Positions 9,530-51,329 of a stretch of DNA of 51,494 nucleotides are shown here, piece after piece; position 1 is the stretch's first letter; each line of letters opens with the position of its first letter. The translations under genes and the position numbers were made by a program. Origin of the DNA: Collinsella aerofaciens (GTDB lineage: Bacteria; Actinomycetota; Coriobacteriia; Coriobacteriales; Coriobacteriaceae); assembly GCF_015552075.1 (NCBI RefSeq), contig NZ_JADNDZ010000102.1, positions 1-51,494 of the forward strand, written 5' to 3'. The notes under the pieces were generated by a model that was not told the origin of the DNA, searched no databases, and worked only from the letters and a program-made list of their open reading frames with translations.

Positions 9530-10290
9530 ATCAAAACCACCCCTAAAAGGGGTGGTTTGCTCTTAGGGTATAACCCTTGGATTTCCGGCACGCGTCTAAA
9601 GGCGCCGGCCCTCACGGGGTTCGGGCCGCACTGCAGATTGACCCGTGGCGGGCCGGTCAAACCGGCGTTATTTACGCCCCGGCCCCCTGCCGAAGGGGTC
9701 CTCGTACTCCTTGACGCTCAGCCGGTCGAGCGCGATGTCGGCCTTCTCCTGCTCCCGGATGTACTTCGCGATCGTGGCCTCGTTCAGGCCGACGGTGGAC
9801 ACGTAGTAGCCCTCGGCCCAGAACCTCCTGTTGCCGAACTTGTACTTCATGTTCGCGTGCTTGTCGAATACCATCAGCGAGCTCTTCCCCTTCAGGTAGC
9901 CCATCACGCTCGATACGCTGTACTTCGGCGGTATCGCCAGCAGCATGTGGACGTGGTCGGGCATCAGGTGCCCCTCGATGATCTCTATCCCCTTGTACTG
10001 GCAGAGCTTCCTGAAGATCTCCCCAAGGTCGGACCTTATTTGGTTGTAGATGACTTTGCGCCTATACTTCGGCGTGAACACGACGTGGTACTTGCACATC
10101 CACTTCGTGTGCGACAGGCTGTAGGCCTTCTGGGCCATACGCCACCACCGCCCTCTCGACTCGGATTCCTTGCGGCCTGAACAATCGCAAGTGTCCGGCG
10201 AGGGGGCGGCTTTGTAAAGCCGTTTGGCCCCACCCGCATAGCGGGTGGTTTCTGATGCGGCGCGCTGTGCGCCCCGCACAGGCTAAAGCC
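9530..10290 (-). mobile_element. IS200/IS605-family insertion sequence, TnpA-only
   Basis: A small element with one tnpA gene and subterminal hairpins at both ends, as expected of IS200-type elements. The right-end hairpin is AAACCACCCCT / AGGGGTGGTTT (9534-9544, 9548-9558). The left-end hairpin is CCACCCGC / GCGGGTGG (10230-10237, 10241-10248). Both contain ACCACCC. Exact ends cannot be fixed because this family has no terminal inverted repeats or target duplications. It lies between the IIB gene and the SIS gene of one PTS cluster, directly after the IIB terminator. Confidence 0.8.
9668..10138 (-). CDS. tnpA: IS200/IS605-family transposase TnpA (Y1 HUH)
   Basis: 156 residues, the normal size for IS200-type Y1 transposases (IS608 TnpA is 155). 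The HUH motif is His62-Val-His64 (MPDHVHMLL). The catalytic tyrosine is most likely Tyr126 in KYIREQ, matching Tyr127 of IS608. GYYVSTVG precedes it, as in the family. The chosen start, ATG 10138, gives the family-typical N-terminus; the longer frame runs through the left-end hairpins. The enzyme moves single-stranded DNA by recognising the end hairpins. It appears intact. Confidence 0.93.
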   Translation of the reverse strand: MAQKAYSLSHTKWMCKYHVVFTPKYRRKVIYNQIRSDLGEIFRKLCQYKGIEIIEGHLMPDHVHMLLAIPPKYSVSSVMGYLKGKSSLMVFDKHANMKYKFGNRRFWAEGYYVSTVGLNEATIAKYIREQEKADIALDRLSVKEYEDPFGRGPGRK

Positions 10291-23484: not shown

Positions 23485-24618
23485 CTACTCCCGGTAGGGC
23501 ACCCGGTCGCGCATCACGGCGTATATCGCCCTGAGCCGCTTCCTCGCGACGGCCTTGAGCGCCCGTCCGTGCCCCATGCCCCGTGCCCTGCAGGCCCGGT
23601 AGTACTCGCCGTAGCGCCCCGAGGACCTCACCAGGCTGTTGCACGAGAAGATCAGCAGGGACTTGAGCCTCGCGTCGCCGCGCCTGGACGCCCTGACCGA
23701 CCTCACCGACGTGCCGGAGCTCCTCACCCTCGGGGCTATGCCGCAGTACGAGGCCAGGTGGTCGTGGTCCGGGAACCTCCCGATGTCGACCGACACCGCG
23801 AGCTGCGCCGCGGTCCTCGGGCCGATGCCGGGCACGGTGAGCAGGCACGCGTAGGTCTCGTCGCCCTCGAGCAGCGCCGCCGTCTCGGCCTCGAGGGCCC
23901 CGGCCTCGTCGAGGGCTTCCGATATCCGGGCGGCCAGGAACCTGACCTGCCTGTTCTCGGCCTCGACGAGCGCCGGCGGGGGCGCGGTGGAGGCGGCCGC
24001 GGCCTCCCCGGCGGCCTCGGCCCGCGGGCCCTCGGCCCCGGAGCGGGCGATCCCCCACGCCCCGCCGAACCCGGCGAGCAGCTCCAGCCACCGCCGGTCC
24101 GACAGGTCGACCGCGGCCTCGAGGGCCGGGCAGGACTCGAGCAGCACCGCGCGCAGGCGGTTCTTGTCCCTGGTCGCGCAGGCGACGACGTGGTCGCGCT
24201 GCGACGAGAGGGCGCGGGCGGCCTCGAGGGCCTCGCCGCGGCCCGGGACCCCCGACAGGGAGTCCGGCACGCCCAGGGCGGTCCGCGCGATCACCGCGGC
24301 GTCGCGCTCGTCGGTCTTGGCCTCGCCGGCGAACAGGCCCGCGGCGCGGCTGGCGGCGAGCCCGGGCAGGTAGGCGACCCCGAGCCCCGCGGCGCGGGCC
24401 CGCCTCACGGCGAGGGACCCTATGTTGCGGAACTGGTCGACGACGACGAGCGTGCCGGCGGGCGCGGAGGCGAACAGCGCGTCGAGCTCGGCCTCCCTGT
24501 TGCGGACGGGGGCGCTGGCCAGCACCTCCCCGTCGCGGTCGATCAGGCAGGCCCAGTGCGACGACTTGCCGACGTCCAGGCCGAGCACGGCCGCGGGTCT
24601 GGTGGATGGCGCTTTCAC
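23485..24618 (-). CDS. IS110-family transposase (DEDD recombinase)
   Basis: 377 residues. The N-terminal RuvC-like DEDD domain shows GLDVGKSSHWACLID (first Asp), VVVDQF, and AKTDERDAAVIA (Asp-Glu-Arg-Asp). The C-terminal Transposase_20 domain shows VPGIGPRTAAQLAV, LASYCGIAPRVRSSGTSV with the candidate catalytic serine, and GDARLKSLL. The GTG start at 24618 has GGAAGGA eight bases upstream; an upstream GTG at 24672 lacks one. The gene looks intact. IS110 recombinases use a bridge RNA encoded in the non-coding end to choose donor and target DNA. Confidence 0.92.
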   Translation of the reverse strand: MKAPSTRPAAVLGLDVGKSSHWACLIDRDGEVLASAPVRNREAELDALFASAPAGTLVVVDQFRNIGSLAVRRARAAGLGVAYLPGLAASRAAGLFAGEAKTDERDAAVIARTALGVPDSLSGVPGRGEALEAARALSSQRDHVVACATRDKNRLRAVLLESCPALEAAVDLSDRRWLELLAGFGGAWGIARSGAEGPRAEAAGEAAAASTAPPPALVEAENRQVRFLAARISEALDEAGALEAETAALLEGDETYACLLTVPGIGPRTAAQLAVSVDIGRFPDHDHLASYCGIAPRVRSSGTSVRSVRASRRGDARLKSLLIFSCNSLVRSSGRYGEYYRACRARGMGHGRALKAVARKRLRAIYAVMRDRVPYRE

Positions 24619-24639
24619 GGTGGTATCCTTCCGGTAGTC

Positions 24640-24860
24640 GTTCGACCGGATGGCCTCCCCCTCGGCACTCACATTACCAGCCGCGGCACCTGCCCGGCAC
24701 TTTCCTATCAGCCGTCGGGGGCGGCGCGTCCCGCGCCGGCAGCACCCAACTGGCCCTCTCGGGGGCAGGGACGTTCGGCCGTGCGCGGGCGCCCGGTCGG
24801 GGGCCCGTTCTGGGCGCGCCTCAATCGTAGCCCGAGACGGTCCCGGGCTGACAATTTCGA
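24640..24860 (-). ncRNA. Candidate IS110 bridge RNA region
   Basis: About 220 bp of GC-rich non-coding DNA upstream of the IS110 recombinase. It contains several self-complementary stretches, such as AGCCCGAGA / TCCCGGGCT and GTGCCGGGCAGGTGCCGCGG. In the IS110 group the bridge RNA is encoded in this position, between the left end and the recombinase gene. Assignment is by position and GC-rich structure only; the donor and target loops were not resolved. Confidence 0.45.
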
Positions 24861-24867
24861 CTGTAAT

Positions 24868-24903
24868 GGACGTTCTTGAATGACTAGTCGTTTAAGAACG
24901 TCC
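24868..24903. repeat. REP-like hairpin GGACGTTCTT / AAGAACGTCC
   Basis: Perfect 10-bp arms at 24868-24877 and 24894-24903. The loop contains AATGACTAGTC, which recurs directly at 24,906-24,916. It abuts the presumed 5' end of the IS110 element, and IS110 relatives often insert at REP palindromes. Confidence 0.7.
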
Positions 24904-24961
24904 CCAATGACTAGTCTCTTGACAAGCGCGGAAACGTCGCTGGTTGAGCATAAGTCAGCGA

Positions 24962-25059
24962 AAACGCCCCTAAGCGAGCAAGGTGACGTGAAAGAGGAGG
25001 GAAGCGTACTTCGGTACGCGACCGACGATTGAACGTCAGATTGCCGCTTAGGGGCGTTT
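24962..25059 (+). ncRNA. Candidate structured RNA with four nested stems and a UUCG tetraloop
   Basis: Nested perfect stems. P1 is AAACGCCCCTAAGCG / CGCTTAGGGGCGTTT (24962-24976, 25045-25059). P2 is GCAA / TTGC (24978-24981, 25041-25044). P3 is TGACGT / ACGTCA (24984-24989, 25033-25038). P4 is GCGTAC-TTCG-GTACGC (25004-25019). A purine-rich internal loop (GAAAGAGGAGGGAA opposite GACCGACGATTGA) separates P3 and P4. The classic C(UUCG)G loop forms on the plus strand, which I take as the RNA strand. No known family is recognised. Confidence 0.5.
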
Positions 25060-25072
25060 GCAGCGTCGGCCC

Positions 25073-25100
25073 GTTACGCGGTTTGGTAAAACCGCGTAAC
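25073..25100 (-). terminator. Hairpin directly after the GntR stop codon
   Basis: Perfect 12-bp stem GTTACGCGGTTT / AAACCGCGTAAC with a 4-nt loop, adjoining the stop codon at 25101. There is no T-tract, so it may be a transcript-end stabiliser rather than a true intrinsic terminator. Confidence 0.45.
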
Positions 25101-25820
25101 CTACATGACCATGACGTAGCGGCTGCCCACGTAGTACTGCTTGCCGAGCAAAACCGGTTCATCGTTGGGACCGATAAAACCGACACGCAAGTTGAGCAGC
25201 GGATCGTGCGGGGCAATGCCCAGCTCGGCAGCCTGCTCGGTGTTGGCGCGAACGGCCTCGACCGTGCGGTGGCCAACCGAGACGATCGGGATGCCGCCGA
25301 CACGCTCGACCTCGGCAAAAATCGACTTGTCCTCAAGATCGGCCGTCAGCAGCTCGCGATACTGGTCAAACGGCACAAAGACGTTTTCCTCAAAGATGGG
25401 CTCGCCGTCGGCCGTACGCACGCGCTTGATGTGCAGCAGCAGTGCACCCTTCGGCAGACCAAAGAATTCCATCTCGTTTTGACGCGCCGGCACAATCTGG
25501 CGATCGACTACATGCGTGCCCGCCTTCATGCCATTGTCAGCACATAGCGCGGTAAACGTCTGCAGCAGCGAGGCGTGGAACTGGCGATTGATGTGCGGCG
25601 TGGCGACGAAGGTGCCGCGTCCCTGCTGCTTAACCAGGTAGCCATCGGAGCACAGCTCCTCAACGGCACGGCGCACGGTGATGCGGCTCACCTCATACTG
25701 TTCGGCAAGCTCGAGCTCGGACGGAATGCGCTCCTTGGGTGTATAAACACCCTTTTCGATCGCGTCCTTGATCTCGTCGTAAATCTGCTGGTAAAGCGGT
25801 GCGTTTTTAGGTGCGGACAT
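25101..25820 (-). CDS. GntR-family (HutC/UTRA) transcriptional regulator, third copy
   Basis: 239 residues. The winged helix is in residues 8-75 (PLYQQIYDEIKDAIEKGVY, RIPSELELAEQYEVSRITVRRAV, QQGRGTF). The UTRA domain ends in GKQYYVGSRYVMVM. Its promoter region has TTATCAAA / TTTGATAA arms and a GACGTTATA box that recurs upstream of the second PTS operon, EamA and the first SIS gene. This suggests that one regulator of this group controls all of them. It lies downstream of the YitT gene on the same strand but with its own leader. Confidence 0.9.
   Translation of the reverse strand: MSAPKNAPLYQQIYDEIKDAIEKGVYTPKERIPSELELAEQYEVSRITVRRAVEELCSDGYLVKQQGRGTFVATPHINRQFHASLLQTFTALCADNGMKAGTHVVDRQIVPARQNEMEFFGLPKGALLLHIKRVRTADGEPIFEENVFVPFDQYRELLTADLEDKSIFAEVERVGGIPIVSVGHRTVEAVRANTEQAAELGIAPHDPLLNLRVGFIGPNDEPVLLGKQYYVGSRYVMVM

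Positions 25821-51251: not shown

Positions 51252-51329
<78 letters not shown>

Follow-up and report, generated by a model that had tools for sequence, protein, structure and literature searches.

Intergenic palindromes of 100–150 nt that occur in many copies, e.g., ERIC, NEMIS and RPE-1, are known from other phyla, and the element treated here resembles them in size, intergenic position and copy number, a comparison made by description. The REP/BIME palindromes of the GTAG and CGTC superfamilies are located mostly close behind open reading frames in convergent or unidirectional arrangement (Di Nocera et al., 2013, PMC3733652). According to PMC12306157, which cites earlier work, stalling of ribosomes has been reported for REPs of E. 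coli that lie no more than 15 nt from a stop codon. Among structured RNA candidates, the Collinsella-1 motif (RF01700) has been described from human-gut Actinobacteria (Weinberg et al., 2010, PMC2864571). The element gives no match to the Rfam 15 model of this motif nor to any other Rfam 15 family up to an E value of 10, in agreement with a preliminary description that had assigned it to no known RNA family. A description of the element was not found in the papers searched, all from the open-licence literature, either, and the Coriobacteriia are not named in PMC3733652.

The element was studied in a stretch of 51,494 nt from Collinsella aerofaciens, termed the window. We consider it rather probable that the element belongs, as a single copy, to an undescribed, REP/BIME-like family of dispersed palindromes of the Coriobacteriia that spreads as DNA and probably acts on mRNA ends; a stand-alone RNA gene is probably the less likely interpretation when set against a DNA-borne repeat like the REP elements. 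Members of the family exist in many copies with covarying arms, are strictly placed at stop codons, are gained, lost and exchanged between sites and cluster with a second palindrome family. As in REP/BIME systems, many dispersed intergenic palindromes lie close behind genes, stems change on both sides and mosaic clusters occur, and like the CGTC REPs the element has no known transposase (PMC3733652). On the other hand, its units are larger: a hairpin of about 100 nt with a fixed core, joined in a long form by another one that abuts the stop codon. Whereas REPs measure 20–40 bp with stems of 8–9 bp (6–13 bp as test range) and are thus short palindromes with a simple stem, the element has some 30 pairs (98 nt with nested stems in the window copy), and two traits are its own, the conserved triple tandem-G.A core and the strictly antisense position relative to the gene it abuts. 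It was therefore placed outside the GTAG and CGTC superfamilies on account of its length and structure; in addition, the flanking RAYT gene typical of GTAG REPs was not observed.

Hairpin B, the part described before (24962–25059, plus strand), folds into nested stems of 15, 4, 6 and 6 bp (24962–24976/25045–25059, 24978–24981/25041–25044, 24984–24989/25033–25038 and, at the apex, 25004–25009/25014–25019) closed by a C(UUCG)G loop (25010–25013), exactly as the preliminary description had proposed. The energy of −60.4 kcal/mol compares with −27.3 ± 3.25 for shuffled sequences (z −10.2) and was equalled by none of 200 shuffles. With −52.0 (z −10.9) the minus strand folds nearly as well, and under DNA parameters, too, the two strands are much more stable than shuffled versions of them (z −8.4 and −8.2). 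The plus strand, on which alone the preliminary description had seen the tetraloop in its stable orientation, is the better folded one as a single sequence and also in the consensus computed by RNAalifold from an imperfect alignment (plus strand −60.8, SCI 0.51, vs. minus strand −40.9, SCI 0.37). No convincing open reading frame covers 24962–25059, to which the preliminary description had ascribed no coding capacity.

The purine-rich asymmetric loop noted before is present and turned out to be an ordered structure. It forms a regular series, 5'-GA AA GA G GA GG-3' vs. 5'-CC GA C GA UU GA-3', in which three tandem G.A/A.G mismatches stand between A-U, G-C and G-C pairs and are followed by a 3x2 loop; the mismatches conserved in the core are purine-purine on the plus strand. 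This core (24990–25032) consists of GAAAGAGGAGG (24990–25000) and CCGACGATTGA (25022–25032), which flank the apical stem. The UUCG tetraloop is a property of the window copy and not of the family, as nearly all copies carry UUNN at this position.

Hairpin B is part of a larger unit. On the plus strand it is followed by a linker (25060–25072, GCAGCGTC.., in gene sense GACGCTGC) that is conserved in the long form, and by hairpin A (25073–25100, GTTACGCGGTTTGGTAAAACCGCGTAAC), whose arms covary among copies as well and which lies 0 nt from the stop codon of a gntR/UTRA regulator gene (25101–25820, minus strand); the element thus follows this stop codon and is antisense to the gene. A distal module (24935–24961, plus strand, CGTCGCTGGTTGAGCATAAGTCAGCGA) adjoins hairpin B on its other side, while a separate palindrome of the type that clusters with the element (GGACGTTCTT...AAGAACGTCC, without assigned strand) is found at 24868–24903. 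Read in gene sense, the long form, to which the window copy belongs, comprises the stop codon, hairpin A (GTTNCG...CGNAAC), GACGCTGC, hairpin B, TCGCTGAC or similar, and the distal module; in short forms the stop codon is followed immediately by hairpin B and nothing else. REPs bear an unpaired GTAG or CGTC tag at one end of the palindrome; in the long form, CGTC occurs a few nucleotides behind hairpin B (within GCAGCGTC), and short forms share no common tag. A pairing of GACGCTGC with the distal GCGGCGTT that was seen by eye in the long form is absent from the consensus fold. The long-form layout recurs with a better paired core in another family of the order (genomes G051, G091, G106 and G110), and tandem arrays with a spacing of about 100 bp are present in some Collinsella (e.g., L118, L105 and L163).

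The other neighbor of the element is an IS110 transposase gene (23485–24672, PF01548 and PF02371), and the placement between an IS110 end and a GntR gene given in the preliminary description is correct. It was also considered there that the element might prove to be the terminus of a mobile element. For the IS110, this interpretation draws on the adjacency in the window only and is now virtually ruled out: in two related genomes (G007 and G023) the same site reads recQ – element – gntR without any IS110, the element being retained with both arms replaced and still paired, and annotated copies elsewhere are mostly without an adjacent IS110, one near tyrS having it.

A DNA search of the source genome yielded 42 matches, of which some 20 are clearly related. 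Excised copies share one hairpin fold even though their arms differ completely, e.g., AAACGCCCCTAAGCG, CGGGTTTTCCAAGTG and GACGGCGTCAGCTG, and the core GAAAGAGGAGNG...CNGACGAYTGA is nearly invariant in 20 copies. In these 20 copies, 12 of the 18 pairs of the core model have changed on both sides, 98.3% of cells are paired and the covariation score is 0.474, compared with 0.106 for shuffled alignments and at most 0.096 in slid controls. Since a bulge distinguishes the outer arms of the subfamilies, which were misaligned in a first alignment of 103 columns, the covariance model, R1, was built on the core only. It matches the window at 24977–25045 (E 2.1e-24), finds 37 copies in the source genome and detects 1–49 copies per genome in 39 of 43 Collinsella genomes; the search in Collinsella and relatives that the preliminary description had recommended returned many copies, with stems that covary. 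Within the sample of Coriobacteriia, R1 copies were found in 67 of 197 genomes and 24 of 93 genera, and in a sample of the phylum only two genomes outside this class gave matches, both weak. Phage records contained no match to the element; one pattern match on a viral contig (L213) was rejected as it does not fold like the family.

In a pattern scan of named genomes, the organisms among the matches listed were Collinsella, Enorma, other Coriobacteriaceae or Atopobiaceae and at least three sphingomonads, a range that is to be taken as a minimum. The three sphingomonads listed (Novosphingobium, Erythrobacter) each have a single copy that agrees in core and fold (L117:5801–5867, L157:2321–2387 and L149:4146–4216). 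In two of them, extended flanks that match each other and contain a further long hairpin lie behind unrelated genes, so that the composite seems to be mobile in sphingomonads too. A further actinobacterial genome, G402 (L309, L310, L311 and L312), harbors seven near-identical palindromes of about 190 nt whose core, GAGGAGCG/GCGACGA, is similar; several of them are located at contig ends and one behind an SMC-like gene.

The position of the copies relative to genes is highly regular. In two well-assembled genomes, whose genes were predicted with a simple ORF script, the gene that follows the core on its 3' side lies on the opposite strand for 65 of 77 copies (p 3e-10), and the same is true for 33 of 39 copies within one genome (p 7e-6). 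RefSeq annotation of C. aerofaciens NZ_OY725717.1 agrees with this arrangement: cysS, tyrS, lysS, rpoC, queA, proB, lacB, hisF, map, an ammonium transporter gene and others end against the element, a P-type ATPase gene with the element in sense being an exception. Where the stop codon could be placed, the first helix begins no more than 15 nt behind it in 59 of 61 cases, and directly at it (0 nt) in 25. All 61 of these stops are TAA or TAG, compared with 32 TGA among 477 other genes. Local GC skew runs along the element in 31 of 77 copies and indicates no clear preference for a replication strand; orientation follows the gene end. Upstream neighbors and their distances are variable and therefore imply no common promoter. 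The hairpin directly behind the stop codon is what the element shares with the E. coli REPs of PMC12306157, while sequence and size differ. Placement behind stop codons and a folded strand antisense to the gene are also reminiscent of attC sites, from which the element seems to differ in its housekeeping hosts and in the reverse order of GTT/AAC.

In Collinsella, a genus common in the gut, about 40 elements lie directly behind stop codons in a typical genome, often those of housekeeping genes. The host genes in G023 are largely housekeeping or biosynthetic, and aminoacyl-tRNA synthetases account for 4 of the 32 (30 scanned; p 4e-4 on the assumption of 22 synthetases in 2000 genes). Synthetases and release factor 1 are over-represented among the genes that end against an element (in G023, L242, L255, L258, L259 and L266); the synthetase genes are ileS, tyrS, cysS and lysS and, elsewhere, pheS, asnS-like and metG-like genes. 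The 900-kb record NZ_OY725717.1 of C. aerofaciens (L040 and L302), labelled 'plasmid 6', looks like a chromosome, since genes for tRNA synthetases and ribosomal proteins as well as rpoC and rpoA are found on it.

The fixed position behind stops would also be expected of a cis-acting mRNA element, read in gene sense from the minus strand, that acts at the 3' end or between cistrons as a regulator, a terminator or a hairpin for processing and is selected at particular genes. Several observations fit this interpretation. Many short forms are conserved at orthologous sites within Collinsella, the share of synthetases among host genes is that given above, and the pheS-pheT junction is occupied in Collinsella as well as in three genomes from another family, where it holds the only copy in two. 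Moreover, a hairpin with a T-run behind it, in gene direction, is present within many weak-class copies but is missing from the strong class, to which the window copy belongs, and at one site relatives carry an intrinsic terminator instead, perhaps with an 8-nt remnant of hairpin A. However, the gene-sense strand has the worse fold and the poorer consensus, and strong-class copies often have a distinct terminator-like site downstream, so that replacement of a terminator as the sole function was rejected. The first count at pheS-pheT suffered from a bias, its loci having been chosen through their hits; in an unbiased sample, the junction was filled in 3 of 3 Collinsella but in 0 of 23 other genomes, which excludes it as a universal site and reveals a patchy occupancy, and copies have been swapped between subfamilies. 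Selection as a cis-acting mRNA element is accordingly regarded as unlikely. Equally speculative is the broader notion that the triple tandem-G.A hairpin is common to Coriobacteriia and sphingomonads, is read by a protein and generally regulates the 3' ends of housekeeping genes (synthetases, rpoC, prfA) in a major gut genus; the conserved tandem-G.A core provides a sharp handle for finding a protein that reads the element.

The preferred interpretation as a DNA-borne repeat family agrees with the turnover seen when sites are compared. Near-identical long forms reside at unrelated loci, those behind gntR and behind an M20 peptidase gene being 95.7% identical over 139 nt; some sites are empty in relatives, and at others a different subfamily occupies the same place (L069/L285, L057/L267 and the window's own site). 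Against this interpretation, the filled/empty pairs examined yielded no clean target site duplication and represent replacements rather than clean insertions. Conserved terminal inverted repeats as in MITEs are also lacking, since it is the arms and ends that vary most and the center that is conserved. At a carA/carB-like junction, identified by eye (L269/G007 C1:1139352), a weak copy is accompanied by an altered 3' end of the upstream gene, whose frame seems to enter the repeat, while the junction in the compared genome is short and plain.

Structured RNAs are expected to show a much larger number of G.U than of A.C changes on the RNA strand. Counted on the plus strand, i.e., the strand antisense to the abutting gene, G.U and A.C changes amount to 106:76 at orthologous sites, with some genomes counted repeatedly, and to 394:306 in 115 distinct copies. 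A ratio of only about 1.4 reflects a slight preference for the plus strand and no marked excess; this near balance points to a palindrome that is kept as DNA and does not support a single-stranded ncRNA gene well. More generally, even strong covariation between the arms of a hairpin is not necessarily a sign of RNA. An ncRNA transcribed from the plus strand, stand-alone or acting in trans, a possibility raised in the preliminary description, could account for the very stable fold of this strand with its purine-purine mismatches and UUNN loop, for the better plus-strand consensus and the slight G.U excess, and for the covarying stems, a trait that the element does possess. The conserved, covarying structure outside any Rfam family thus stands. 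The stand-alone gene is not supported, as we are dealing with a dispersed repeat of about 40 near-equivalent copies per genome that lie antisense at the 3' ends of the genes they abut, and that move and are swapped. We regard the ncRNA interpretation as doubtful, even more so than a cis-acting mRNA element, although plus-strand folding and the slight G.U excess, which count against the dispersed-repeat interpretation, leave room for a role of plus-strand RNA.

Under the preferred interpretation of a repeat family, copies would spread and become corrected as DNA. The strand with the purine mismatches, i.e., the plus strand, may be exposed as a single-stranded DNA hairpin that is recognized by a mobilizing or binding enzyme, and the pairing of the arms could be maintained by exchange among copies together with template correction of palindromes. 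The minus strand would be transcribed as part of a 3' UTR or of an intercistronic mRNA region, where a stable hairpin 0–15 nt behind the stop codon might protect the mRNA end and/or hold up terminating ribosomes, by analogy with the E. coli REPs as portrayed in PMC12306157. If the elements act on mRNA ends, they constitute a genome-wide layer of post-transcriptional control that has so far not been described; if they are DNA repeats only, they represent a large family of mobile palindromes and a possible typing marker.

As to the mobilizing enzyme, none that moves the element was found, which likewise counts against the preferred interpretation. The source genome encodes two IS200-like TnpA and two RAYT-like proteins, and it is conceivable, though we hold this extension of the preferred interpretation only tentatively, that RAYT-like HUH transposases of the host mobilize the long form and the GGGGACG palindromes. 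Among Collinsella genomes, RAYT-like genes are present in 9 of 9 with many copies and in 2 of 6 with few or none (Fisher p 0.011, in a test that is not independent because the genomes are related). The GGGGACGTTC palindromes form with the element a mosaic arrangement like that of BIMEs: of the 42 in two genomes, 28 are no more than 350 bp away from an element, a zone that holds about 8% of bases. These palindromes resemble the GGGGWSAS motif of RAYT-type terminal repeats (PMC3733652), but the element itself is without this motif, and the RAYT-like genes of its own genome are not flanked by it. Further misfits are a genome with four such genes and one copy (G201) and another with two genes and two copies (G120), and the case for RAYT-like enzymes as mobilizer is suggestive only.

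The two RAYT-like genes of the source genome are located at L043:1009–2031 and L044:1087–1854, the latter being flanked by GGGGACAGAC-type palindromes that fit the published GGGGWSAS motif. One of the two IS200-like TnpA genes (Y1_Tnp) lies in the window at 9749–10105 and the second on another contig. The window furthermore contains a tRNA gene cut by its left edge (1–45) and a complete tRNA gene near its right edge (51255–51329).
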